Shown here one piece after another: positions 12,249 to 63,101 of a stretch of 64,000 bases of DNA. This stretch comes from Branchiostoma floridae (lineage: Eukaryota; Chordata; Leptocardii; Amphioxiformes; Branchiostomatidae), in contig NC_049979.1 of assembly GCF_000003815.2 (NCBI RefSeq), positions 16,519,595-16,583,594 on the forward strand. Direction: 5' to 3'. Within the stretch, counting starts at the first letter, position 1. Each line of letters starts with the position of its first letter. Below the pieces are notes generated by a model that saw nothing but the letters and a program-made list of their open reading frames with translations, made no database searches and was not told the origin of the DNA. The translations under genes were made by a program, and so were the position numbers.

Positions 12249-12259
12249 ATTGACAACAA

Positions 12260-24045
<11,786 letters not shown>

Positions 24046-25538: not shown

Positions 25539-28500
25539 TCAACCTTTCATCCCATTTTCCATGGCAAAAACTGGGTTTGCATGAGCCTGTTTTCTGCTTG
25601 TCATGGTGAAGTTGTTTCTACTTCTCTTCACACACCGAATCACACAGGCTATAACAGCAACGGTTAGGATCAGAGCTGCAGGGATTCCCACGGCTAAGGC
25701 GATGATGTTCTTGTTGTCAAAGTCGCCGTCATAGTGATCATCTGGCTCTGGAAATAGACCTCAGTGTCAGTACGTCATATAGACATGAAATCAAAGATAT
25801 GTGGGTAAAGGTCGGCTAAAGCTAAAGATAAAGAATGACTTGAATTGAATTGGGAAAAGACGGAAGCACACTAGTACTGTGCATTGTTAATTTCTGTGAG
25901 ATTAACACGTCAGTCGCTCTACAAGTTACGTTCCATCACCTTTACCTGTTGTGAAAACAAGGCCAGTAGTAGGTGCTGCCATAGTTGGACAGGGCTGCAG
26001 AACATGCGCCCCCTCCTGTGTTGAGTTGATGACCTTGATGCGTCCCTCCAGCCCTACAGACACGGGCGACGTGGTCTTGATGTAGGCAATCAGGATGTCT
26101 GTGTCGAGGTCACCTGTAGGGTGGACAGGGATATTTACTATATTGTAGTAATCCTTATAATTAACGTTTTGACTTTTATTCGAAACACTTGTTTCACATC
26201 TACGTATAGTTATCAGAACGTTACATACCTGGTATGTAGTGAGCTGTCTTGTTCTCAGCAATCATGTTGTATCCGTCCCCGCCGTTTGCCAAGAACGTCG
26301 GCATGATGATCTTGTAGCTGGCGGCGGGGTCCAGCGGTCGGTACTCGGGGATGAGGCAGCCCGTGCTGCAGCGTGCCTCTACTCTCACCACTCTGTGACC
26401 CGGGTCCTTCGTCTTGTCGTACACGACGCGAAGACCTGAAAGTAGAATGAACAATGCTGTATTTCTCTTTTCTCGTACCATGGGCATGGTAAAAGCTGTT
26501 GAGACACGAAAGTTTGCAGTCCTTGGAAACGAGAAACATGTCCAATAGAGTTTCCGACGAATTTCCTCAACAGATCTTGCTCATTGACACTGACAAAAGG
26601 TAGTGGATGCTACCTGAAACGGCCGAAAAACTTCCTAAATCATACACAGTTGCTTGAGTAAATGCTATTTGGCATTTCCAATCCATACCAACCAGAAACT
26701 TGCAGGAACCTTGGATGGCCGATAAGGCTTGCTGAGTGCTCCAACATGCGCACCACATCCTCCCCGCGCAGCTCCACGATGTCGATGGTGTTCATGAAAG
26801 GGATACATCCGACGATGTCTCCCACGGTGATGGTTCCTAATAGAGTAATTGACCAACTTCATCTTTAATGCACTAAATGCATCTAAATGGGAATACGTTA
26901 ATGTACTTACTGTATAAATGTTTGATCATGCATCGACACTTCATGTTTCTGTATGTACCACGGATAATGCAGAACATGAATGATCGTTCGTTTACTTAAG
27001 TTGCCCTTGTGACTACCGTCGGTCAGCATAGACTCGAAAGAATAAGTAAACAAATAGAGACTTTGGTATGCTTGCCTTACCCCATTGTCTAGTTGAAAAG
27101 TTGGCACGGACGTGCGGGTCAAACAAAGTCAACTGAATTTTACCAAGGTTCTTTTGGTTGATTTGCTCGCTTACTTCGCAGGTTAAGACGGGCTGAGTCG
27201 TCAACAGTCTTCAAGTAAGACGTTAACCTTATGTTGGGTGCGACGGCACGACCACATATCATTCTTTGTTTGAAAGTCGCCTGTGTTGTATGCAATTTGC
27301 CATAGTATTTGCTGTGCCCAATATGTTAACAAGCTCTTCCGTGGAGGTAATATTCGTATTTTGAAACTCATTGGTTCTTATGTGTTTCAATTCAGACTTA
27401 TTCCTACCGATAACTAAACAGTGTCCACCAATTAGAATCGATATGGCCAAATACAAATTCAGAGGTGAGACATCTGTGCCTACCTTGGCCTATGATGGAT
27501 CTGATGCCGCCGGAGTTCAGGACGGCAATGGCGACATCGTTCCAGCTGGTTTCGTCTGGATGTTTGATGTTGTGGTGAACCATGGAGTCTGTGATCAGGT
27601 TACCTGGTGATGTAGCAAGGGTTAGAATCATTCACACATTTTGTATATGAAAAGACAACCGCTATAGAATAACACCAAACTGATTTGGTGTTACGGGCCC
27701 CTGTGTGCATTCTTTCACGAACCAGCGATGTATATGATTTCTTCAAATTACAGTATATCATGATAAAACACAGCAATGAGAAATTAGCTGTGAACCTAAC
27801 GGCCGAATGGAACACTTGTCGAGTCTAAATAAAGGCACAAACAAACAAACAAACAAACAAACCTATGTTGCATTCCCCAAAGTCGCATTCCCCGCCAAGT
27901 AGTACTTGTGTTGTCCCCACGGACTGCTCCGTCTTGTTGGCGAGGCTTGTCGCCAGCCTGGCCACTTCGGCGGAGATGTTGGTGTCTGTTCATGGGGAAA
28001 CAAGTGTTATAAAATTATATGAAATATTGTATAGATTGGACGCTAATAGGTCGGTGATTACCTTGCTGCAAACTGTGCACTGTTCCGCACTGTATTTGTT
28101 CGATTTTAACGGTTAACCAGACCTAAAAGAACATTGTGTGTTCAAAAGTAGATGTTCCCTATGTTCATAATTATGGCATAATGCTATCATTAATAGCATG
28201 TGCTGAATAACAACTCACTCGCTTGAATCACGGAGGTTAAGTCAAGTGTGATTTCTGGTTAAAATAGATCAGTTTTTCGTACCTTTCGGAACTGTGTCGT
28301 TCAGAAGGATCGGGTCCCCCGCCCAGTGTGTAACTTTACCGTCGTCATCAAACGTCACCCTGAGGTGTCCCAGGTACTTCCCGAAGGCGTACGCCTGGAC
28401 CACCAGGACGGGGCTCGTCGGGTCGTGGTCAGGGTAGACCGCGATAGGGTACACGCCATATGGCTCTTCGTTAGATGGAGGTTTACCTACGACACAAGAG

Positions 28501-30535
28501 GGTTGTCTTATACATTCCATTTCATAAAAGTTCTACAACTGGTTTATATAAAATTTGATACTTTCTATTCTAACATAGCAACGTTACCTGTGTATAGGAA
28601 TGTGTTGGTGTGTCCGCCGACCACAATGTCCACTCCGCGCACACGCGAGGCCACCTCCTGGTCCACGAATATTCCTGTGGTTGAAAGCCAGGCGAAGTTA
28701 TATTTGACTGTCCTAACTTTCAGAAAATTTGCAAACAATGTTATCCTCATACATCTAGTTTACAAATATTTGAAACTCTAAAATCAGCGTGCACCGCCCT
28801 GCTTCGCATACCACCGAATTCAATGTAGTACAAGTCTCCTATTTAGTGATATACGCCAGTGCAGTGATAGCCTTTGCACAGTCTCAGTGCCGAAGTATCT
28901 CGTACCTGCATGGCCCAGGGCAATAATTTTGTTGACTCCCTGGTCCAGTAGTTTGTCTACCTCTTCCTGTACCGACTCCACTAGCGCGGAAAACACCAGA
29001 TTATCCCCTGTACACAAGAACAAGACAGATGTATTAAAATGTACGCGCAAATTTCGTTCTTTGCTTACTAGTATTTGACAATTCGTTTTGATTTCGTTTT
29101 AACAGTGGCAGCATACAATTATAACAGATAAGATATCTCTTTGTGTCGTTTGTAAGCTGAACGTTTGCTTGCCAATGAGGATTCACAAGTCCCACTAACT
29201 GACGGCTGGACCTGACGTCATAACAACTTACCTGGGTCGGAGATGAAGGGAGTGTCTGTAGTTGTGTAGCCGACGATACCGAGATATTCTCCGCTCACGT
29301 TCAGGACCACGGAAGGACTGTATGGAGGGGAAATGGGAATAGATGATTGATATATTGATGGTGCACGGAGGCATACCAGGAAAGAATATGGGGTAGGAAA
29401 ATGGAAGCAACATGGAAGATATGTTGACAAGTTGGAAATGTAGTTAGTAATACGTAACTTAGGGGGCTGTACAAGGCGGATATACATGCAATGTCTGCCT
29501 AAATACTTGCTGATCCAATTCCTGATCGCTGATATGATATCGTCAGTTTTATCTTCGTATAGGCTGCTAACAATGAATCACGTCCGGCAAAGTTTCTATT
29601 TTTGTAGTCCAAATATATATCTACTACGTGATTGCTGAAATACTTGAAATGGAACTTGTGATAGTGAATATTGAATTTCTTTCAAAAGAGAAAAGAGATT
29701 ATTACTGGGTATGTATGAAATGAGATGTCTAACCTAAAGAGAGATCGAAGCTCAGGTTCCCTGCTGGCGTTTATGTTGGCGCTCACACAGGAAAGTTTAC
29801 GTTCCTCAGAAAGCACCAGTTCTTCTACTCCGTCGTCAAACTCGTGGTTGCCGATAGTCTGAAATATAGACATGTACCATTTTTTTTATGAAAAAGGAGA
29901 CTCAGTCACTGTGCTTACAGTATCATTGCTGTTAGGGTGTTTCAAGTATGTGTGTGTATGGAAATTGGGCTCCCGATCCCTTTTGTAAACATTTGTTCTT
30001 TTGGTGGGAGGCAATCTAATCTTTTTTACCATCTACTGTTACAACAACTACATTGAATAAACTAAGTTTAAAAGCGTTTTCTACGCGGAACTCAGTCCAA
30101 AAATGCTCAGGAAAAATCTCGGGCTTAGGTATGCACTTTATCGACAGTTAACTTCACACCTACATGCATTTCATTGACTTGATGCATCTCTAGAAATACT
30201 AGTAGTAATAAACTAACCATGGCATCGTAGCGCAGTTCGTTCATAAATTGTGACAACACGGAGCTCCGAAAGAAGTAGTACCACAGCGTTCCCTGGAACC
30301 AGTCGCCGGCGTCAAGCAATATCACGTTATCTTCAATAGTTCGGACCTCTTCGACCTTGCTGGCCATGCGGGCGACTCCTCCGAAACAAGGCTGGCCCGG
30401 CCGGCACCTGCCGCCGAACGCGTTGGCCTCTTGAATACGGGAGTGGACATCGTTGGTGTGAAGGATGGACAGATGAAATGGACGAACAATGCTGCCTGAT
30501 AAAAGAAAAGGCAGAAGAACGAAATAACGCCACAT
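25539..30535 (-). CDS. NT5E: CD73-like ecto-5'-nucleotidase with TM anchor
   Basis: Hydrolyses extracellular nucleoside monophosphates such as AMP to the nucleoside. Twelve exons, read right to left, give 630 aa: 30535-30218, 29858-29734, 29317-29232, 29007-28906, 28674-28588, 28486-28283, 27985-27863, 27603-27484, 26836-26693, 26435-26229, 26113-25946, 25747-25539. A signal peptide (MWRYFVLLPFLL, residues 1-19) precedes the metallophosphatase core: D29/H31 (TNDVH), D78 (LLDAGDW), N110-H111 (GNHEFD), H209 (LGHAG), H232 (GGHTN). The C-terminal nucleotide-binding domain follows (SGGIRS, FLANGGDGY 484-492). The last exon encodes an acidic stalk, one hydrophobic helix (about 575-598) and a basic 32-residue tail, not a GPI-addition signal as in human CD73. 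An upstream in-frame ATG at 30577 exists, but residue 1 here is set just before the hydrophobic core. It shares a divergent spacer with the acyl-CoA synthetase. Confidence 0.92.
27838..27862. repeat. (AAAC)n microsatellite abutting a splice donor
   Basis: Five to six CAAA/AAAC units directly touch exon 7 of the CD73-like gene. On the gene strand the donor reads AG|GTTTGTTTG, so the intron begins inside the repeat and lacks the usual GTRAGT. Confidence 0.75.
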
Positions 30536-30622
30536 CTTTTTATCTAGAAACCGCAAACAAAATGTGCCAAGCCGCAAAGCAACGTGTGCTTAAACAAAGT
30601 ACATATGTGTGTGTATTGTAGG

Positions 30623-33188: not shown

Positions 33189-33288
33189 NNNNNNNNNNNN
33201 NNNNNNNNNNNNNNNNNNNNNNNNNNNNNNNNNNNNNNNNNNNNNNNNNNNNNNNNNNNNNNNNNNNNNNNNNNNNNNNNNNNNNNNN
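33189..33288. other. Assembly gap (100 N)
   Basis: Exactly 100 N, a placeholder length. It falls between the candidate presequence exon and the first certain exon of the acyl-CoA synthetase, so part of that gene's 5' end may be missing. Confidence 0.99.
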
Positions 33289-46854: not shown

Positions 46855-49800
46855 ATGACGGGACCAGTGGACGCCATGGCCTCTCAACAGGCAGAGCCCA
46901 GCAAGGTGGGTTCATCCCTTAGCCTTAAAGGCCCCCTCTCACTTGACGTGGGGCACGCTTGCGGCATTGCTGCGTTCGTTCACTGCGGCACTGTTGTGTT
47001 AATTTCGCCGATTTTGTCTTGCACTCACACTGACGTGCGGCACTGTTGCGTTTCTAGACTAAATGAACATGTTATTGACAATTGCAGCGTTGTCAATTTA
47101 TGAAAAATCACCGTAAAATGATGAGAATGCCCCAAAATGAGATTTATAATGAAAAGATTTCCCTTATGATAATGAATTATATGGTACATATGCTATAAAT
47201 AACCTTGAAAGACTTTTACAGTAAAGGAAATGACCCAAATAAACGGACACGAACTATATACCAGATTTCACTCGATGTGTACGTTTTGCACCATGTAACG
47301 TTATGTGTAATTATGTATGTTTATATGTTTATTCACCAATTTTGCAAATTTCTAAAATGAAAATGTTTGATATTTCATACTTTTTTTGTATGACGCTGAG
47401 TATTTTCATTGTCGGTGGATGGCTTGCCAGCCTATTGATGTCTAAGTCTATCATATTTGTAAAAAGTGAGAAAAATATGGCCCATGGGTCTGAATGACTG
47501 CAATTTTGTATTTTATCGGTGGCAGGCTGCCAGCAATGATTAGCTTGTAACGTTATAACGCAAACGCAAACTCGTTATCATGATCATCCAACATAAATAA
47601 TTTCTTTTTGAACGTTGTACGATAACCTTTATCTCTACATCCTTAGGTTAATCGATAAACCAGTTACTTATTTTTTGTTTTCAAGTATAAAATACTGACC
47701 TACTTTCCATTAAATAAATCAAAAGATGTATTTTTAAGTTAACTCTGAATACGGATACAAGGTAAGTTTTCTGGAATTCGCAGTGTTTTAACTGGATCGA
47801 AAACCGCTGTAAAATTATTAGAAATGCATCTAAAATAGTTTTTCGGTGATAAAATGGTGTTTACTTTTGATTCTTGGTGTAAAATAGGCAAAATATATCC
47901 TTGATACTGTTTGGGGCATGGTGGCGGCACTGTTGGGGCATTGTTGGGGCACCGTTGGGGCACCGTTGGGGCACTGTTGCGGCACTGTTGCGGCATCTTG
48001 CCACTTGCGTTATTTTTAAACTTTTTAAAAAACGTCGCGCTTGCAAGCGGCACTTCTAGGTTTGCTTGCGGCACCTCTAGGTTTGCTTGCGGCACCTCTA
48101 GGTTCCGTGGGGGTACATCTGCGTTTTCGAACGCAGCAATGCCGCAAGCGTGCCCCACGTCAAGTGAGAGGGGGCCTTTAGCCTAGCCATGTCCATCTTT
48201 GAATTGTTTACCTTTTATATGAAGAAAATTATTTTCATTATCAAATCATGTCTGCAACCAGTGTATCATTTTGCTGTCGATGTATTCCACAGATGGAAGA
48301 CAGCAATAAGGACCATTTCGACGGGTTCCCCGAGGAAAGAAACTATCGCGCACAGAGCAGAGAAAAGCGATGTGAAGAGACACAGCAGTCATGTCAACAT
48401 CCAGGTCCAGACGACAGCCACTATGCACTCGCTATAGTCGGAATCGGTGAGCCATAAAGGAATCCAACTTTCTAACACTACTGAACCAAGAACCTTTATA
48501 AGAAGTCTGGTACCATATTTTCCTATCCATAAGATGCTATACCAATCAATACTAAGTGTGCGTTATCTGTAATCAATTTCAGGTTGCCGAATGCCTGGCG
48601 GCACAGACACTCCCTCGAAGTTCTGGGACGTCATCAGAGAAGGAAGAAACGTCATCACCGAGGTTCCACCAGAAAGATGGTCCCTTGAAGCCTACCACAG
48701 TACAGACCCACACCAGTCAGGTACCCACGTCACACGCAAGGCTGGGTTTGTGGACGACATCGACATGTTCGACCATACCTTCTTCAAGATCTCACCTCGT
48801 GAGGCCGCCATGATGGACCCCCAGCAGCGCCACCTGCTGGAAGTGACGTACGAGGCGTTTGAAGATGCAGGTATCACGCCTGAGAGTGTGTCTGAGTCGT
48901 GTGGTGTGTTTGTAGGAATAGGCATGATAGATTATGCTTTGTTCATGGCAGGAGACAAACACCTGTTCAACTCATATGTAAACACAGGAATAGCGCATAG
49001 CGTGGCCGCAAACAGAATCTCCTATGCTTTCAACCTGAAGGGACCCAGTCTTGCTGTAGATACCGCATGCGCAGCATCAATGACAGCCCTCCACATCGCG
49101 TGTTCCTCCTTGAGGAACAAAGAATGCAGCGTCGCCCTCGTGGGGGGCAGCAATGTGCTCCTCATGCCGGAGGTAACCGTAGCTTTCAGCGCAATGGGGG
49201 TTCTGTCACCTGACGGATTCAGCTGTCCATTTGACGCATCTGCCAACGGCTACGTCCGCAGTGAAGGGTTTGGAGCCGTCCTGATCAAGCCTCTCAGCGA
49301 CGCCATACGAGACAGAGATCACGTGTACAGCATCATCAGGGGAAGTGCCATATCCGATAACGGCTTCAGTCACAGCATCACCATGCCGTCCTCCAGTGCA
49401 CAGGAGCAGCTCATGAGGACAACCTACGCCCGCTTCGGAGTTCCCCTCTCAGATGTCCTGTACGTCGAGGCTCACGGGACCAGTACGCCCGTCGGAGATC
49501 CCGCAGAAGCTGAAGCCATCGGAAAAGCCTTCGGTCAGCATCGCGCCTCCCCCATGAGGATCGGGTCTGCCAAGAGCAATTTTGGACACATGGAGTGCGC
49601 TGCAGGAATGGTGGGTGTCATCAAGACAGCACTGATGCTGGATAAGCGAACCCTCTGTCCCTCCGTCAACTACACCTCACCGACTCCTAAAGTTGACTTT
49701 GAAGAGCTGGGCATCTCTGTACAGACCAAAGTAGAGAACTTTCCTGACAACCAAAACGTGACGCTTGGCGTGAACTGTTTTGGATTTGGTGGAGCCCTGG

Positions 49801-52800
49801 CCCATGTCATCATGGAGGAGCACAACGCTACACCGCCAGTAGCTCCGACCCACCACGGGAGGGGATGGCAGTTCGGACCAAGTGACCAAGAGGGTGACTT
49901 CATCATTCTGCCGCTGAGTGGAAAGTCTTCAGACGCCCTCAGAGACCTTTCTTCCAAGTGGCTGACGTTTCAAGAAGAGAAAGATGCCCTCAGCGTTTCT
50001 TCATGGGTAGCGACACGCAGAAACCACTATCAAAATAGACTTGCTGTCGTCACCAATTCTGGGGCCAAAGCAAGAGAAGGCCTGCAATGTTTTGTCAACA
50101 AGATGGCTGCTGACGATGTCATCACCGGAATATCACAGAATGCCCGTCCTAAAGTTTGCTTTGTCTTTCCTGGTCAAGGGCAGCAATGGGATGACATGGG
50201 AAGGAAGTTGTATCAGCTAGAGCCTGTGTTCAGGGAAACAGTCGATGTCTGTGACCAGATCTTCACACAAGTCAGTGGATGGTCCCTTATGCAGAAGACC
50301 GGATTGTTCAACACAAGCGACGGTCCCGCCGAGTTCACACTTGCAGAAATGAAAGTCTCCCAACCCGCAATACTCTTCACCCAGGTGGGGTTGTTTGCTT
50401 TGCTGAAGCATTGGGGCATTTCCCCTGACGTGATCGTCGGTCACAGTCTAGGAGAAGTTGCAGCAGCCTATGCGTGCGGTGGTCTGACTTTGGACGAAGC
50501 TATCCGGGCTATCTACATCAGAAGCACAGAACAAGCCAAACTGCAGGGATGTGGGAGCATGGCAGCCATGCGTGCATCAAGGAAAGAGGCTGAGGAGCTT
50601 GTTGCCAAGAGTCAGGGAGTGAAACTGGCGTGTGACAATTCTCCCACATCTGTCACAGTAGCAGGAACGACAGAAGCCATTGCTGCACTTCAAGATCAAA
50701 ACCCAACAAAGGTCAAAATGCTGCGTGTCTCCTGTGCCTTCCACACCGACCACATGGACCCCATCAGAGAGTCCTTCCTCGAGGCGATGTCTTCCGTACA
50801 GCCTGACAGACATGGAGAAGCTCACGCACCTTTGTACTNNNNNNNNNNNNNNNNNNNNNNNNNNNNNNNNNNNNNNNNNNNNNNNNNNNNNNNNNNNNNN
50901 NNNNNNNNNNNNNNNNNNNNNNNNNNNNNNNNNNNNNNTGGTGGAAAAACATCAGAGGAGAAGTCAAGTTCACGTCAGCCATTCGGTCCATCATCCAAGA
51001 TCACAATCCTGACGTTTTCATCGAACTTGGTGCCTCCGCTACGCTGTTGTCGTCCGTCAGCCAAACACTCAAGCATGAAAGCTGCCCAATAAAAGTCACC
51101 GTGCCATGTGGACAACGTCAGCAAAACGACCACAAATGCATGCTACGTGCCTTGGCCACATTGTACGTGAATGGGGTGGACATCGACTGGACAAATGTAA
51201 CTCAGGACGCAGCTGAATGGACGCCTGCCCCAACATACGCCTGGCAGCACCAACGACATTGGCAAGAGGCCGAATCCTCGCGGAAAAGGAGGCTGGGTCT
51301 CGAAGATCGCACCTTCAAGGGACAAAACGGGCACATCACCCTTGAGAAGTTCCCCTTCCTTGCAGATCACGTAGTGAACGACAGCGTGGTGTTTCCTGGG
51401 GCGGGATATATTGAATACATGGTGCAGATGGCTGTAGATAGCTCTGAGAACCCAACACTGCAGGACATTCAGTTTAAAAACGTCCTTGTTTGGCCAGACG
51501 CTAGTGACCTCAACAAAACTAGCGCCACCATCCAGCTGACGTACACAAAGGAGGGAAGGAAGCTAGAGGTAGCCACAGACAGAGTACACGCTGGGTGTCA
51601 GCTCACTCAACCTAGCAATGTCAACTCTGAGAGTGTTCTGGACACGACGACTACAGGGGCCATGGAAAAGATCACGGGTCAGAATTTTTACGAAAGATTC
51701 AGTGACTTGGGACTGATGTACGGCCCCGAGTTTCAGGTCGTGAACGAGGCCTTCGTGGGCGACTGGAAAGCCATTGGCTTCCTGAAGCCAGCAACGGATG
51801 CGCAGCAAAGAGTCCAAACTACAACACTGGATGGGTGCTTTCAGGTTGCCCTCGCTGCCATAGGACCCTGCTCAACTCTATATCTCCCCACTCAGATCAC
51901 CACATTCAGCATGCTTGTACCCTCCCTACCACTCGGGGAACACATGGTAGTACATGCCACAGTTGTCTCCCGTTCCAGCATGTCAGTCAAGGCCAACATA
52001 ACACTGGCGACAGTCCAGGGGAACATCCTTGCGCAAATCGACGGCTTCGAAGCGACAAATGTTTCCGGTATCAACTCTGACGTCGACACAGACAGCTGCT
52101 TGTATGAAACAAGATGGCAGCCTGTCATCTCTCCTCTGCCGGAAACAAGTATCTTCTGCGACCTGTTCAAAGACGAACATCTACAGAAACAGTACAGCGA
52201 TGAAATGGAGATGATAGAAGCAGCAGAGAAAGCCCTGCCTAACCTCAAACGTCTAGCTTTATCCTACGTTCAACTCGCGTTGGATACTGTTCCAGACGCC
52301 GAGGTCAGCCCAAGAAACAAGAGGTACATAGAGAGGCTCAGAACCGTCATCGACGACGTGGATAAGACCGCATTTGACACGATGTCACTAGATGAGATCC
52401 ACAAGTCCCTGGATGAGATGAGAAAAGACGTACCGGCGATGAGGCTCGAGTTCAGCATGCTGCAGCGCCTTGGGGACATTCTGCCGACCATTCTCCGTGA
52501 CCCCTCAGCTGCCCTGCCGATTCTCTTTGCCGCCGACTGCCTAGCTGACTACTTCATGGACTCACTGACAACAAGACTGTACTACCGAGCTTGCACTGAT
52601 GCCATAGAACAAGCCGTGAAGACCGCACTCGAACGGAAACAAACTGTTCGCATTCTTGAAGTCGGAGGTCGTATGGGGGGACTGGCGCGCTACCTACTGA
52701 AACCTCTCAAAAGCCAAGGAGATGCGGGGCACATTGAGTACGTCTTCACCGACCTGAACACAACCTTCTTTGCACATGCCAGCCAAGTCCTTGAAGATTA

Positions 52801-55800
52801 CGCTTTTGTCAAGTATCAACAGCTCGACATCGAGAAAGCGGTGGAGCCACAGGACTTCATCCCAGGAACGTTTGACATCGTCGTCTGCATGGACACCCTT
52901 CACTCGGCGGTGGACGTGATGGAAGGCTTGAAGAACATGCAAAGTCTTCTCTGTCCCGGTGGCTGGCTTGTCATGTTCGAAGCGACAAACGCTTTCTACA
53001 TGTGCGAGGTTGTGTTTGGATCATTGGAGCTTTGTTGGGTGTATGATGATGACTACAGGATGGACACATGTTGGCTCTCCAGGGAAGGGTGGAGCAACCT
53101 ATTTGAAGATGGAGGAATGCACGATGTTGTGAGTGTGTCATCACCTCAGGAGTTTTTCCATTCTATCACCATCGGTAGGAAACCCACGCCCTTACAACAA
53201 GCAGCTCCTGCTATTTTGCAAACTAATGACAGCCAACAGTGGCTTCTCGTGGGGCCCCCTGACAGCCCCCTTATCAACACAGTTCAGAGGCTGCTACCCG
53301 ACAACACAATGGTACGTTCCATCGGTGACAGGATCGACATTCCCAACAATGGCCCTCCCTTGCGAGTTGTGTACGTCTGGCCAGAAGACGACAAGTCCCT
53401 GGTACACGCCCGGTCCCTAACCAACGCCCTGTACCAGGCGTCCGAGAGAGTTCAGGACATGTGGGTTTTCACAGTAAGTGGCAGTGTTGAGTGTGCCTGT
53501 CCGACAGCATCTGCCGCCACGGGCTTCTTCCGAGTTGTAAACAACGAGATCAGAGACCTCCCAATCTACACAGTAGATCTACCGTCAGACATTCTGAACG
53601 GCTTGACGGACGTGGTTGAGACCTTGCTGAAGTCTGACCCACCGACCGAGAGGGAGCTATCCATCCGTAACGGCGAAGTCCTGACCCCAAGGCTCGTGAA
53701 GGCGTCCATCTCAGACGGCATCAGCACGTCGCCCTCCGGAAGCTGGGCTCTGGATATCGCTCCTGGGAAGACAGGAACATTGGATGACATGGCGTTCTAC
53801 GGGCAGGCATCCACATCTCTGTCAGACAACGGAGTCAAAGTCAAAGTTCATGCAGCCGGCTTGAATTTCAAAGATGTAATGATGGCTCTGAGTCTTCTGG
53901 AAGGGCTCAAGTTGCAAACACAGTTTGGCCTGGAATGTTCAGGAACAGTCGTGGAAGTCGGTAATGATGTGAAGAGGATCAAAGTTGGAGACGAGGTCAT
54001 CGCCTTTGGTGACCACTGCTTCGCGTCACACGTGACTTGTGACGAGCACTTTGTCATGGCCAAACCTCCACACACCAGTTGGACGGATGCAGCTGGGTTC
54101 AGCATGGTGTACATCACTGCGTACTACGCCTTGATCGAGAGAGCACGGCTACAAGAAGGGCAGACACTGCTGATACACTCTGCCTGTGGTGGGGTGGGAC
54201 AAGCAGCCATACAAGTGGCAGGCATGGTGGGGGCCCGTGTGTTCTGTACGGCCGGATCTGAAGAGAAGCGCAACTACCTACGGCAGATGGGAATGACACA
54301 CGTGTCTGACTCCAGGTCTACCCAGTTCTACCATGACGTCATGGAATGGACAGATGGCGAAGGAGTAGATGTCGTCCTCAGCTCCTTGTACGGTGAACTG
54401 CAAACTGCCACCATGAAGTCTCTAAAACCCGGAGGCACGTTCTGCGAAATCGGGAAACGCTCCATTCTCGAAGGCGTAGGCATGGACATGGGGCCACTGT
54501 TGAACAACAAGACGTTTCTGTCTGTTCAGCTAGATCTGCTGATGAAGGAGAGACCGAAGTACGTCCGAAAGATGATGGAGACAATCTGCTCTCTTCTGGA
54601 GAAAAGACATATCTCTCCTGTGCTGACGACAGTTAAAACTATTGACGACTACAAGGAGACGTTTCGGTGGATGTCAAAGGGCCAACATGTCGGCAAGGTT
54701 GTCTTTGAGATGCCAGTCAAGTTTGAACCGGAGAGCTTGGTGCCATCTTCTCACATTCTAGAGGAAAACGGTACTTACCTCATCACTGGCGGGTTTGGAG
54801 GGGTTGGACAATCCCTGGCCCGTTGGCTGGTAGACCATGGAGCAAAGCACATTGCCCTCCTGTCCAGAAATGGGTGCAAAACAGCTGAAAATGTTCACAC
54901 TGTCGAGTACATGGAGTCCAAAGGTGGAAAGGTGTACACGTACGAAGCGGACGTGTCAAACAAGACATCGTTGACAAACGTGCTGAACCATCTCAGAGCC
55001 GACCCCTCGCTTCCTGCGCTGAAAGGCATCTTCCATCTCGCTGCTGTCATTGATGATGCCAATGTGTTGGACGTGAAGGACAGTCAACTGGAAAAGTCAC
55101 TAGCAGCGAAGGCGTGGGGAGCCCTCCACCTGCACGAGCTGACACAGGACGATGACCTGGACATCTTCTTCCTGCTGTCATCTGTCACTGCCGCCTGGGG
55201 GAATCCAGAGCAATGTGGGTATGTGGCGGCCAACAGCATCCTGGATGCTCTCGCTGAACACCGACACCGGCGGGGACTTCCAGCACTGTCTCTCCAGCTT
55301 GGAGCCGTCAGAGGTGTGGGGATCCTGGAAGGCAACACTAAAGCAGCCAAAATCGTCACAGGGAAGGGTATGCTGACTCTCCACATTGACGAGTGCCTCC
55401 AGATGCTGCCACGCCTGCTACAGGCCAGGGACACTCCTGTTGTCACATTAGCCAATATGGTAAGTACAGCTGATATACGGTTTTAGTTGTTTTCATCACC
55501 ATGTCGGTTTGCATAAACATATTTTCAATTTATCCTGTATTTATGGTAGCATGTAGTAACAGTAGCGATGTGCATTTGTTATCACATGTTGTCTATCACA
55601 CACATCTGCTGATTGTGCTTCTGTCTTTAACATCAAAACAGGATTGGGCCAAATGCATGCAGTTCTCCTACCCGACGAGCATGAAGTTCCGTCATCTTGC
55701 AGCTGGAAAGAACAAGGAGAAGTCCGGTACGTTTCTGTGACGTCATTACTTTTAATGATCTGTTGATGGTGTGTTTTCTTTATATGCTGTGTACATTTCA

Positions 55801-56145
55801 TCATCACGGTTCAATAGGTACATTGTCTTCCATTGCTATGCATTCCCATACTGATAACATCTTCTTGACAAAATAGTTGACGCTGACTTGAACGAAGACG
55901 ACCTACGCGAGCAGGTTCTGGAGCAGCTGGGACAGATCCTCTGCATGCCGCCCAGCCAGATCGACCCCGACCAGCCCATGATCAACTACGGCGTGGACTC
56001 CCTGATGGCCGTGGACATTGTCAACTGGATGAACAAGAACTTCGACCTCAGCGTGTCCCAACTGGACATCTTGGGCGGGATGACAACGACCACGCTAGTA
56101 GGGAAAGCTGTAGTTGGGGAGGTAGCACTTCCCTTGCGCAAGTAA
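46855..56145 (+). CDS. Type I polyketide synthase, KS-AT-DH-(MT)-ER-KR-ACP
   Basis: Iterative megasynthase building a reduced polyketide or branched acyl chain from malonyl units. Five exons: 46855-46905, 48293-48446, 48583-55459 (includes 100 N), 55642-55726, 55877-56145; about 2470 aa. KS: C231 (DTACAAS), H366 (EAHGTSTP), K399/H404 (KSNFGH). AT: S690 (GHSLGE), Arg in IYIRS, H789 in CAFH, a malonyl-type motif. DH: His at 51368 (ADHVV...FPG, motif Gly replaced by Asp) and Asp at 51830 (LDGCFQ). Methyltransferase-like fold near 52640-53150 with altered SAM motif (EVGGRMGG). ER: LNFKDVM and SACGGVGQAA (54178). KR: TGGFGGVG (54787), catalytic Ser/Tyr (LSSV, GYVAAN at 55217). ACP: GVDSL serine at 55999. 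It ends 46 residues after that serine with no thioesterase. The KS is closer to PKS than to animal FAS (DTACSSS, no TE). The frame switches across the N gap, as expected of a placeholder length. Confidence 0.92.
46926..48180. mobile_element. DNA transposon with perfect 53-bp inverted ends (PKS intron 1)
   Basis: Bases 46926-46978 and 48128-48180 are exact reverse complements (outer end TAAAGGCCCCCTCTCACTTG). The 1255-bp element fills most of intron 1. Inside, near the right end, are GC-rich tandem runs (GGGGCACCGTT/GCGGCACTGTT units at 47919-48000; GCTTGCGGCACcTCTAGGTT units at 48035-48105). No transposase is visible. Left flank TAGCCT and right flank (TA)GCCT could be a target duplication overlapping the terminal TA; the superfamily is undecided. 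Confidence 0.8.
50839..50938. other. Assembly gap (100 N) inside the PKS AT domain
   Basis: Exactly 100 N between APLY and WWKNIRGE, within the C-terminal part of the acyltransferase. One base of a codon remains before the gap and a codon starts right after it, so the true missing length should be 3n+2 bases for an open gene; 100 is not. Confidence 0.98.
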
Positions 56146-57686
56146 TGACCACGAGGGGGTCAGCGTAGGATGGTTAACCCGAACCTGTACCATTAGCTGC
56201 TAACGCTACGATTTTTAAGATCATGGTCTGACATACATGTACCCGAATGCGAGCTAGACAAACAACTCAAAACCACTCAATGTTGTCTTGGGATAGGTAT
56301 ATACTTCTTTTCTTTTGCGATGTCTCAGGAACAGTACCGTTTTTAAAGTTTGGACAACGTCTGTTTTTATGCAATTTTATCATGTAAATGATACTGCTTC
56401 TTCTTTTTGCCTTGAATCTAGTTTTAATAGAGTCGTAATAAGTACAAATGTGTGGTGATATATGGTACTTCAGTAGTAGCAGTTTGTTTCTGCTATGGAT
56501 AAAGGGCTATGGATGAAAGCTGGTTCTGTCCTGCCCTGCCCTGTTTAGCTATGTTAACGTTATAAAATGTCTATCTATGTATGTATGTAATTGATTAAGC
56601 TTATACTCGTGACATTTTAAAAACGACAATTATTTATACTATTAATACTTTTAGTCGATTCATACTATGTTATATTCAAGATGTACATCTTGCTGGCCAG
56701 TAAAAGGCATTCTTAATATATTTTGTATCAAAATATTTTGTATGACTCATATATACTCGTATAAACCAAGCCAGTATAGTCACCAGTTAAACACGGAAAC
56801 ATATCCTTTGTTTTTTTTGATGCAAGACTTTCATTATTTAAATCCTATTATTGTTGCATAGTCTCATACTAGTAATGTAAAGAATCTCACGCAAGCTTTA
56901 GTGTTGATGATCAGCCATACACTACCCTCACTACCCCCCCCCCCCCCAATGCCATTTGCAATGTATAATAAAGCACAAAGGATCGAGCTGATACATAGGG
57001 AATACCACATTTGCGCCAGGCATGCCTGTGCGTTTTTATATACTCGTAGTAGACGGTGGGACAAGTACACCTTCTTTTTTCAGTGTAGTTTTTTTTATGA
57101 CCTAAAGAATAAAAGTAGATGATGAACTCACATTGTTTCCGCGTTGTCTCCGTTTTAATGTAAAATGACATCTTAATAGAGCACCGTGAATAGCGTCATG
57201 GCCTTCTTCAATGGTTCTCCATAAGTTGTAATTAAATCACAGGTAATCTAATATAAACATCTCAAGGCCACAATGTCTCCGAACTTGACATAGATAATCT
57301 GCGCTCAGATTATTAGTCTCCAGACTCTCCACCAGACTCGTTTGGGTCTCACTAGTTTTGTGTTGCTTCTGGGAGTTTCGAAAAGAATTCCTTCCCAATT
57401 TGAAAAGAACCACCACAAATCCCAATTACAAATCTATTTTGACAAAAGTAATTATATGCTAGTCAGAGCATTTACATTTCACACTAAAGGAGGTACCTAC
57501 TTATGTTAACATAATCAAGGGTGTTGAATCGATAGAAATGAATTGTTTAAAAACTTTAAATATTTTCGGAAGTAAAATTATATATTGCTGATTGACATAT
57601 GGAATAATAGTGACAGATGCTTTTTAAAAAGACAATTTCTACCACAGTGCATGATACGAAGTGACCATGTTATAAGAGGCATGTTT
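56146..57686. other. 3' flank of the PKS gene
   Basis: Probable 3' untranslated region then intergenic DNA. Holds a C-run (56935-56947) and AATAAA at 56967 and 57106, either of which could be a polyadenylation signal though both are far (over 800 bases) from the stop. No gene recognised. Confidence 0.4.
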
Positions 57687-59437: not shown

Positions 59438-62400
59438 TTACAACAAACAATATAGCGCCACCAGCAGCATTCCGAACAACACGATAAACTTTACGATTTT
59501 GGCCAATGAAAGGAAGGACTGTTCCTTGTCCAGAGCAGGTGACCTGAAGGGGTACAGGGTGTTGGCCAGGGCTGACTTGGCGTGGTCAGCTGCTCCTGAC
59601 CAGGGGTGTGGCCCCAGCAGGCGGTACTGGACAGAGAAAGCGGGGCCGAAGTAGCAGAGGAAAGCTAGTTTCGGGTCCCGAGGAAGGAGCTTCCAAAACG
59701 ATGGTTTCACTCCGATCTCTTCGGCAATGTCATCCCGGTACGGCACGTTCATCATCTGTAAAAGGAACGAGATATCTTAGAATCATTCAGACCTATAAAC
59801 CAATCATAAGTAATATAGATGATAACCAATTATAAGATACAGTTTATCAATGTGGTAGCATATTTTTTCCTTGCACCTAAAGTTCAAGATGGAAGTTGAT
59901 GTTACGTAGTCCACGATTTCTTCTGCTTTATGTCGTGTTTATGAACTTGACTATGGACCAAACGTTACCGCCTTGCTTCCCCCAGTAAAGAAATATTACC
60001 CCTGTATCCAGTCTAACAAAACTGTGTTACCTGAAGTTTGACGTAGCCGAACCGCTGCTTCAGCTCCAGCTTGTCGGAGCGGGCCCGCTCCAGCATGGTC
60101 TCCTTGTCGGGAAGCTTATTCAGGCCCTGGGACAAGATAGGTTGGCTGTGTTATGACTCCAGATAACTACAAATCCTATCTAAAACTGATATGATTCTTT
60201 TCTTACGAGAGAGGACGTAACAGTTCTTACTTGCTTATGAATTGCCCATTTGTTTGCCCAGTGACACATGTACTGTCTACCCTGATCACTTAAGTCAAAT
60301 TAATATTTTCAGGACGTTCAAACTGGAAACGAGTGACCTTAGGGAGGAATCACTGTTACAAAACGACCCACTTACCAAGAACACCCTGACGGCCCAGCGA
60401 GCCTGCAGTTCGTAGATAGGAGGATGGGCCCCTATGGTAGACAGGCAGCCGATCACGGACAGGGTGGGTTTTGTCAGCTCCGCGGGGAACACCAACTTGT
60501 ACAGGTTCAGGTCCTCCGTGTTATCTGAGGAGGAACAGGATTGTCAGTCAAAGTGCACGAAAGTTGTCAACTGCTCCTGAATAAAATAAGCTTTGAAAAT
60601 TGTCGTATGCTTACACTTCGTTGTTGTCAGGGTATTTTATCAGTTAGAAAACTATGCACGGGACTTACCAGGAAGAATGGACTTGTCACTGAAGTTAAAC
60701 GCCAGACTGAAGCCAGTGGCGAACACCACAGCGTCCAGTCCGTCCACTGTACTGCCGTCCTCGAACCGAGCGGTGTGCTGGGTGAACCGGGAGAGCTGGG
60801 GCTTCGTGATGACCTGTTGGGGACAGGTGTGTGATTATCAAAAGGTAGTCACAATTACATATTAGATTAGACGTGAAGCGCTATAAAACTGTCACTGACA
60901 CACATAACAAGATAGATAACTGAATAAACAGTCTGACAACAGATCATTAGAAGCACAAACACCAAGTAGAATGCATGAAATGTTGTGTATTGTTCAATCG
61001 TTCAATCGACACATTTACAGTATGCATTATATAAACTTACCTGCCCAGTGGCCAGTCTGTAGCCTATTTCATCATTGGCCATGACGGAATGTTTGAGCGG
61101 TTCGGCCGGACACGTCAGCCCGTAGTTGTCATGGCACACTCTGGCGTTCGCCTCGCCCTTAATGATTTTGTTGACGATGAACTCGGGCATGCTCATGAGT
61201 ACCCGGCGCAGCATCATGTCCCGCGGCATCCCGGCCTGAGCCAGCCGGGGGAGCACCCAGGCACCGTCCCTCAGACTCAGGTACACCTGCGGAACGGCAA
61301 GGGTTGTCAGGATGAACAGTGCACGTTCATAGAGAAGGGTCAAATAGAGCCTCAGTACTGATTAAAAAATTTTATTTTGAAGTACCACTCGGATATGCAC
61401 AATTGGAGTTATGGGTCTTGGCGGACTGGTTTATCGAAGGGAAGAAAAAAGTCAACATGAAATTAAAGAAGACTATAGCACAGCAGTTGTCATAAACTCT
61501 CACCTGTGACGCCACCTGAGCGATCTCCGCCGCCACGTCGCCTGCAGAGTTTCCGGCCCCTGATGATAGATTTGTGGATGAATGAGGTTATCTACAGTCA
61601 TTTGACTTAAGAGTTAAACACAGGACTAGAATGACTGAATCTGGGTATGTAAGTGGAAGGTGATAACTAACCTACAACAACCACCTTCTTCCCTCTGAAC
61701 TGTTGAGCAGTCCGGTACTCCTGACTGTGCATGGTGACGCCTGAGAAGCCCGACAGACCTGGCACGTCTGGAACGTACGGCCGGGCGAACACGCCGTTAC
61801 ACACCTGGGGAGGAAGTAGAGAATCATGAGGAAAGTTTAGCCTGGAGTTCAGCCTTGTTAGCTTTGATCCGCTCCCGAAAGTGGCTACCCTTCGGGAGCG
61901 GACCAAAGCGAACAAGGCTGGACTCCAGGCTAGTAAAGTTGAGATGAGTTAACTTAGCGAAGGAAAATAAGTACAGTATGGAAGTACCAAAGGGGGATGG
62001 ACCGTCACGATCACAGCTTTGAAATAATCACATGTAGAAGATGTCGCAAGTGATCGGTTGGATCTATTACATTTCGTCGCAGATTATCAGTGATCTCTGT
62101 GTTTCACATTTCTATTTCTATGGGCACGTACCATGATGGCTTCAAAGATGTCTTTCTGTTCCGCATCGCTGTGCCCCGTCTGTACGGTACGGACCTCCCA
62201 CCGGCCTGTCTCATCAAAGTCTTCTGTCTTCTCTATGTGACTGACCTGGAGTGATAGACAGGGTTGAACGTAAGAAAGGAGAACAACAGAACAACGATTT
62301 AGAATAGATGGTATAGAAGCTGAAAGTGGTTCAACAACAAAAAATTCCCACCTGTGTGCCGAATCGGATGTGTTTCTTCAGGTCGAAGTGCTGAGCGTAG

Positions 62401-62851
62401 TCCTGCAGATATGTGTACACACGGTGGTACGGCAGGTAGGGGGGCGTGTCCTTAGGGAAGGGGAAGTCGCTGAATGACATCATTTCTTTGCTGGAGTTGG
62501 TGATGAGAGAGCGGTACATGGCGGCGCCCTGGTTGGGCCTGACGTCGTCGGAGTAGTGCCATACGCCGCCTGGAATATTTATATTATAAAATTATTAGCA
62601 CTAGCACGCAATAGGTAGAAGCCAAGGGGACAGGGAAAATACACCTCTATTCTAATCAATAAGACAGGTACATGCCATACTGTGCCTCTATATCAGTACC
62701 ATGCAGACTACCACAAAGAACTATACTATTAGTCATAACTTTCAAAGTAGTCGTGGGTTGGCATGGCAGCTGGTGGAATATTGACGTTTGACTTAAACGA
62801 ATGATAGGTATTGCTAACAGGCTAGGCGTGATGTAACATATACCAACAGTC

Positions 62852-62900
<49 letters not shown>

Positions 62901-63099
62901 TGTTCACACGCACCAATGGAATTAGTTATCTTATGTTTCAACGCTGTTGAACTGAACAATGAAGACGTAATGTCTGGTTCTTACCGAGATCATCATGTTG
63001 CTCGAAACACACAGGCTGAAGCCCCTCCTCCAGACAAGCCTTGATTGACGTGAGTCCGCTCACCCCGGCTCCTATGATTGCCACTTTCTTAAAACCCAT
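59438..63099 (-). CDS. Flavin-containing monooxygenase (FMO family)
   Basis: NADPH- and FAD-dependent oxygenase of soft N/S nucleophiles (some relatives do Baeyer-Villiger oxidation), anchored in the ER membrane. Ten exons, right to left: 63099-62985, 62569-62352, 62245-62132, 61804-61672, 61559-61504, 61286-61041, 60813-60669, 60524-60376, 60126-60031, 59755-59438; all in frame, 529 aa, the usual FMO length. FAD fold GAGVSG (10-15); FMO signature F169xGxxxH175xxxY179 ([11 protein letters not shown]); NADPH fold GAGNSAGD (194-201); FATGF (325-329); hydrophobic C-terminal anchor about 511-529. The acceptor CTTTCCTTCCCTAG lies two bases before the start codon, so a spliced untranslated exon precedes it. 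It converges on the PKS gene. Which vertebrate FMO it matches best cannot be said. Confidence 0.94.
61838..61932. repeat. Foldback element in FMO intron 4
   Basis: Two ~42-base arms (61838-61879 TAGCCTGGAGTTCAGCCTTG.., 61891-61932 ..CAAGGCTGGACTCCAGGCTA) with few mismatches around an 11-base loop. The whole is a near-perfect hairpin of 95 bp, far more GC-rich than its intron, and looks like a tiny MITE. Confidence 0.8.
62851..62902. repeat. (CA)n microsatellite in FMO intron 1
   Basis: A CACACG start followed by about 20 CA units with one AAA interruption. Confidence 0.9.
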
Positions 63100-63101
63100 G
63101 G

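Follow-up and report, generated by a model that had tools for sequence, protein, structure and literature searches.

The stretch of lancelet (Branchiostoma floridae) genome analyzed here, the window, comprises 64,000 nucleotides (C1:16519595-16583594, in an assembly of 513,431,437 bases and 431 contigs) and contains, at positions 46855-56145 of its + strand, a gene for an animal type I polyketide synthase (PKS) that lacks a thioesterase (TE). The gene has five exons, with GT/AG at all borders, which join into one open frame of 820 amino acids 5′ and 1624 amino acids 3′ of an assembly gap. A preliminary description of this DNA had placed ketosynthase (KS), acyltransferase (AT), dehydratase (DH), methyltransferase (MT)-like, enoyl reductase (ER), ketoreductase (KR) and acyl carrier protein (ACP) domains in a single protein, and Pfam confirms this, with matches to KS, KS C-terminal, AT, DH, methyltransferase, ADH_N/ADH_zinc (the ER), KR and PP-binding; because the best E-value is 1.9e-87, a chance match is excluded. 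Indeed, C231, H366, H404, S690 and H789 all lie exactly at the positions that had been given for them, and the frame does stop shortly after the ACP, ahead of a likely poly-A signal (Table 1).

The PKS gene is one of five paralogues in this genome. A search with the KS profile PF00109 (38 candidates scored) yielded 35 matches, which we grouped by position into 15 loci, and five of these loci share the KS-AT-DH-MT-ER-KR-ACP layout in one very long exon. Identity to the window gene is 95.2% for the paralogue at C1:16.52 Mb, ∼80% for those at C11:12.31 and 12.28 Mb and 64% for the one at C4:29.7 Mb. Four of the five genes form two head-to-head pairs, with KS regions ∼50 kb (C1) and 36 kb (C11) apart, and each paired gene is closest to its own partner (95.2% on C1 and 93.7% on C11, compared to ∼80% between pairs), a pattern in these sequences that suggests separate inverted duplications or gene conversion. 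Among the other KS loci, we scanned five long frames, which contain parts of KS-AT-DH-KR (L023 and L025), DH-KR-AMP-binding (L022), KR-AMP-binding (L020) and AT-DH-KR (L029), and found no zinc-type ER domain in these five; in three of them the KR stretch additionally matches PF13561 (by its description an enoyl-ACP reductase family), which we counted as KR.

The catalytic apparatus is conserved across the paralogues. The active-site motifs of KS, AT, DH, ER and KR are kept in all five, at pairwise identities down to 63.6%, as is the catalytic tyrosine of the KR, and the serine motif of the ACP is seen in all four other paralogues. The ratio of nonsynonymous to synonymous substitution rates (dN/dS, NG86) stays under 1 for each domain in all four computable pairs (two values of the most distant pair are saturated). 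It ranges from 0.05 (KR) to 0.53 (the region separating MT from ER) between the window gene and L015, from 0.05 to 0.20 between L016 and L017, and from 0.09 to 0.23 between the window gene and L016; the KR and ER, at 0.05-0.22, are constrained.

The paralogues also bear on the assembly gap within the AT and on the 5′ end of the gene. The reading frame continues across the gap only if the true gap length leaves a remainder of 2 when divided by 3, and each of the four paralogues has 16 codons at this position; thus only 16 codons are missing, and a domain hidden in the gap is excluded. (A second 100-N filler lies at 33189-33288.) The counterpart of the gene in L015 begins at exon 2, a stretch that is 83% identical, and nothing matching the first 16 residues of exon 1 turned up in those stretches of the paralogues that were searched. 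Intron 1 contains, at 46926-48180, an element of ∼1.26 kb that is bounded by perfect terminal inverted repeats of 53 bp and has GGCACTGTTG-like units in its interior; it looks like a young non-autonomous DNA transposon.

Table 1. Parts of the PKS gene (window positions) and its paralogues (contig positions)
Feature	Position	Strand	Comment
Exon 1	46855..46905	+	putative first ATG, non-domain N-terminus; basis, open frame and GT border
Exon 2	48293..48446	+	end falls inside the start of the KS (AIVGIG)
Exon 3	48583..55459	+	remaining KS, then AT, DH, MT, ER and KR, all in one exon
Exon 4	55642..55726	+	KR-ACP linker
Exon 5	55877..56145	+	ACP (YGVDSLMA) and stop; PF00550
Stop TAA	56143-56145	+	
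First AATAAA 3′ of stop	56967..56972	+	likely poly-A signal
KS	48431..49673	+	Cys231, His366, His404; spans intron 2; PF00109 293.5 bits, PF02801 133.1 bits
AT	50160..51181	+	Ser690 in GHSLGE, His789 in CAFHTDH; N gap inside; PF00698 in two pieces, 172.5 + 22 bits
100-N assembly filler	50839..50938		inside AT; stands for ∼47 bases
DH	51329..52066	+	HVVNDSVVFP, LDGCFQ; PF21089, PF14765; residues kept in 5/5 paralogues
C-methyltransferase-type domain	52097..53182	+	GGRMGG at SAM motif I, His and Glu kept; PF08242, C-methyltransferase matches in PDB
ER	53726..54712	+	SACGGVGQAA; PF08240, PF00107, PF13602
KR	54770..55312	+	TGGFGGVG; K, S, Y, N catalytic set; PF08659 196 bits
L015	C1:16508-16518 kb		head-to-head partner of the window gene
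L016	C11:12312-12322 kb		head-to-head partner of L017
L017	C11:12268-12277 kb		head-to-head partner of L016
Fifth paralogue	C4:29.7 Mb		single copy

The lack of a TE is common to the five genes. Pfam finds no TE in the window gene, and in each of the four paralogues the frame likewise ends a short way past the ACP, though not at exactly the same point; over the aligned parts, identity of the ACP exon is 100% for L015 and ∼91% for L016 and L017. With the TE profile PF00975, a genome-wide search that scored the best 15 candidates found six matches, all of them away from the PKS locus. Since neither Pfam nor this search reports a TE, and the frame ends in a stop followed by a poly-A signal, we see no sign of a further 3′ exon coding for one and reject this possibility, the intergenic frames having been viewed by eye only. 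Five of the six matches are on C1, where each lies 6-9 kb away from a KS belonging to another PKS gene. These five genes (C1:15.87, 28.87, 34.26, 34.39 and 34.45 Mb) have closely similar KS domains, and likely correspond to the PKSs with TE and C domains reported in a 2015 survey (Hojo et al. 2015, PMC4604110). The sixth match (C180:168543, L014), on a small contig, consists of exon pieces that read as a free type II thioesterase; among its 13 PDB matches the best, at E 1e-21, is OLAH (4xjv, an S-acyl fatty acid synthase thioesterase). A search for a TE acting in trans, which the preliminary description had proposed, thus turned up this OLAH-like protein, which its sequence makes a candidate releasing enzyme.

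The KS of the window gene is more similar to those of PKSs than to that of mammalian fatty acid synthase (FAS). Among the 60 of 148 PDB matches compared, it scores 410 bits with CurL, 382 with PikA1, 344 with Dictyostelium PKS16, 306 with LovB and 270 with mammalian FAS (7zma reaches 604 bits, but only by adding up two KS domains); the EcPKSs of sea slugs are not among these 60, the lowest of which scores 238 bits. Identity is 45% to CurL and 37-41% to mammalian FAS. In maximum-likelihood trees of 24 and 20 KS sequences, the five paralogues form one clade (support 100/99 and 100/100) and pig and human FAS form a separate one (100/100), so the KS does not fall inside mammalian FAS, a placement that would have spoken against the preliminary description. 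In these trees FAS is represented by mammals and the animal PKSs by the lancelet genome; they carry long-branch warnings, and the intron-split lancelet genes were assembled from tblastn pieces (317-426 of 430 positions). A scan for bacterial KSs gave 13 loci, two of them PKS-like (36 and 43%), of which four were used in the first tree and one in the second. For the 20-sequence tree we dropped four rows as long branches or outgroups (L036, a mitochondrial-type KS and two FabF-like sequences), and the five paralogues and FAS are still apart. Thus, the KS matches and trees join Pfam and the paralogue stops in supporting an animal type I PKS without a TE, as had been claimed. Judged by sequence, the protein is not a FAS. 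We rejected a canonical animal FAS for the lack of a C-terminal TE and a KS outside the mammalian FAS clade, and an animal FAS-like PKS (AFPK) for a KS nearer to CurL and PikA1 than to FAS, the KS of EcPKS not having been aligned.

We consider it likely that the gene encodes an iterative single-module animal PKS, one of a clade of five paralogues, in which the reducing domains are usable, the MT is structural, and release occurs without a built-in TE. The AT would load malonyl units onto the ACP, given its CAFH motif, which we take to mark a malonyl preference, and the KS would condense these units iteratively. The KR, DH and ER could then take each beta-keto group to a saturated methylene, and with domains capable of full reduction, the product would be a reduced or partly reduced acyl chain, while the MT would serve as a structural remnant with no normal hold on S-adenosylmethionine (SAM). 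The chain might be hydrolyzed off by a separate type II thioesterase, for instance the OLAH-like one, handed on to a different acceptor, or released spontaneously. The reduced product that had been claimed is plausible, since none of the five paralogues has a damaged DH, ER or KR motif.

Several observations weigh against this interpretation. In approximately unbiased (AU) tests, a clade uniting the five paralogues with FAS was not rejected (p 0.334), and a clade of all lancelet PKSs gave p 0.075, so more than one deep branching order of the KS tree is compatible with the data. The OLAH-like protein has no known link to the PKS. The MT keeps a His/Glu pair in all five paralogues and is constrained like the other domains, and thus may be a live but altered methyltransferase. 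Both the gene model and the product are read from sequence. Finally, SpPks1 of a sea urchin and CrPKS of a crinoid produce unreduced aromatics with this same layout (Li et al. 2024, PMC11414698), and layout thus does not fix chemistry.

The absence of a detectable FAS raises a different possibility. Searches of the genome with pig FAS KS, pig FAS ER and the TE profile did not find a canonical FAS: the KS query matched 26 times, never above 49% identity and always at loci from the KS list, and the ER query gave eight matches, strong only at the five PKS loci (36-37% identity), with three elsewhere at 29-32 bits. FAS identity between animal phyla is usually ∼60%. A FAS at such identity should have shown, because the acetyl-CoA carboxylase control (PF08326) was detected as six pieces, only on contig C147:60599-110319 (one piece holds four stops), and the PF00109 search picked up KS pieces as short as 33 residues; a canonical FAS gene may have been left out of the assembly. 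It is conceivable, but in our view improbable, that the five-gene TE-less clade has replaced a lost FAS, making cytosolic saturated fatty acids that are released by an OLAH-type thioesterase. The ER and KS results fit such a replacement, as do the five strong TE matches, which belong near other PKS genes, the detection of acetyl-CoA carboxylase exon by exon, and the intact DH, ER and KR. However, the absence is from one assembly, in searches that scored the best candidates only, and the control was a profile whereas the FAS queries were single proteins. Moreover, a set of five divergent copies would be more typical of secondary metabolism, and type I FAS is reported in all ParaHoxozoan phyla, in a paper whose main text does not mention lancelet, cephalochordate or Branchiostoma (Lin et al. 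2024, PMC10764717). On lancelet FAS itself, the literature searched contained nothing on point, including the relevant parts of PMC2976758. If the absence of FAS holds, an animal would have swapped a core lipid enzyme for a PKS.

To return to the iterative PKS that we favor, lancelet PKSs of this architecture have been in print since the 2015 survey. Table 2 of Hojo et al. (PMC4604110) contains 13 B. floridae PKSs, five of them KS-AT-DH-MT-ADH-KR-ACP (XP_002605916, XP_002605913, XP_002610100, XP_002610103 and XP_002608071; two of these rows carry an extra label, one a further alpha and one a leading AMP), and the survey also lists a PKS from a sea urchin that shares this layout and whose KR is defective. 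Both the architecture and the number (five proteins there, five loci here) agree, and two pairs of near-consecutive accessions parallel our two physical pairs; from these counts, rather than from a sequence comparison, we infer that the window gene is one of the five. We found no functional study of lancelet fully reducing PKSs in the literature searched. New here are the intact reducing set in all five paralogues, their shared SAM-loop defect, the paired arrangement, the free thioesterase and the failure to find a FAS.

The closest parallels in layout are SpPks1 and CrPKS (KS-AT-DH-pseudoMT-ER-KR-ACP, no TE), in which the MT is called a pseudo-domain and the KR tyrosine is absent (PMC11414698). 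KS, AT and ACP suffice for SpPks1, the CrPKS product is a 14-carbon aromatic, and NADPH had no effect on either enzyme (PMC11414698). By analogy, the lancelet enzyme might use only its KS, AT and ACP, leaving the reducing domains idle, to make an unreduced aromatic pigment precursor that cyclizes off the enzyme. The shared domain order and lack of a TE agree with this, but we consider it unlikely: the KR tyrosine missing from SpPks1 and CrPKS is present in all five lancelet paralogues, and their KR and ER are under the constraint described above. Because the lancelet PKSs combine the layout of the echinoderm pigment enzymes with an intact reducing set, they offer a clean test of the switch between aromatic and fatty-acid-like products in animal megasynthases.

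Other known systems share parts of this plan. EcPKS1 and EcPKS2, AFPKs of sea slugs, have a FAS-like layout without a TE, as here; their KS is FAS-like (PMC10764717) whereas the lancelet KS, which was not aligned with theirs, is nearer to PKSs, and the ER of EcPKS1 lacks the NADPH-site residues (PMC7280274) whereas the lancelet ER keeps SACGGVGQAA. Lin et al. (PMC10764717) report AFPKs from molluscs and arthropods only, and also describe mollusc PKS genes as having few introns, near the N-terminus. EcPKS1, itself without a TE, releases its product spontaneously through pyrone formation (Nat Commun 2020, PMC7280274). Since SpPks1, CrPKS and EcPKS1 thus all give products without a TE, the claimed need for release in trans does not follow. 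Animal cytosolic FAS has the same set of KS, AT, DH, non-catalytic MT, ER, KR and ACP (PMC10764717, and in part general knowledge), and the window gene differs from it in the missing TE, in the KS identity and tree position given above, and in its five exons.

The MT domain is related to C-methyltransferases but has a defective cofactor loop. Seven PDB matches (E up to 1e-5) were obtained, CurJ (105.7 bits), AprA, PsoF, DisA, 7dmb, LovB and PksCT, and all seven are methyltransferases or PKSs carrying one. SAM motif I reads GAGTGG in all five alignments shown of these seven, and GGRMGG in the window gene (GGRSGG in the C4 paralogue), with the central Gly replaced by Arg in all five paralogues. 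The pair that is kept, His (in LHS/LHT) and Glu, presumably comprises the residues that do the C-methylation chemistry. Because the SAM loop is broken in all five paralogues despite this pair, the domain is probably catalytically inactive, a structural remnant unable to hold SAM normally, judging from these motifs. The complete domain set that had been claimed is thus borne out for DH, ER and KR, with motifs intact in all five paralogues, but was overstated for the MT. There is only a slim chance that the MT is live and that the enzyme, like fungal highly reducing PKSs, makes a reduced chain with methyl branches: the His/Glu pair and the conservation of the domain (60-97% identity of the four paralogues to the window gene, dN/dS 0.13-0.20) speak for it, but the substituted glycine speaks against it. 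LovB, one such fungal enzyme, has the KS-AT-DH-MT-ER-KR-ACP plan in common with the window gene, but the KS match is only 306 bits and the SAM loop is broken here; LovB has a degenerate ER, and its product is released in trans.

We rejected bacterial contamination because of the introns in the PKS gene and its four paralogues, the 35-Mb contig, the animal-type neighbours and the spread of the paralogues across three contigs.

Several neighbouring genes were noted, with extents judged by eye. An ABC transporter gene (∼12250-23530, +) lies in the spacer of the C1 PKS pair; one membrane-domain exon is above the Pfam cut-off and one ATPase exon below. A cluster that includes this transporter was rejected, as the one exon searched had no match on C11, which carries the second PKS pair, and its best other match is on C12. 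The next gene seen after the PKS, tail to tail with it on the – strand (59440-63100), encodes a flavin-containing monooxygenase; Pfam confirms the two exons tested, and the last exon ends in a hydrophobic tail. A further gene on the – strand (28272-30589) has a weak metallophosphoesterase match and resembles a 5′-nucleotidase gene.

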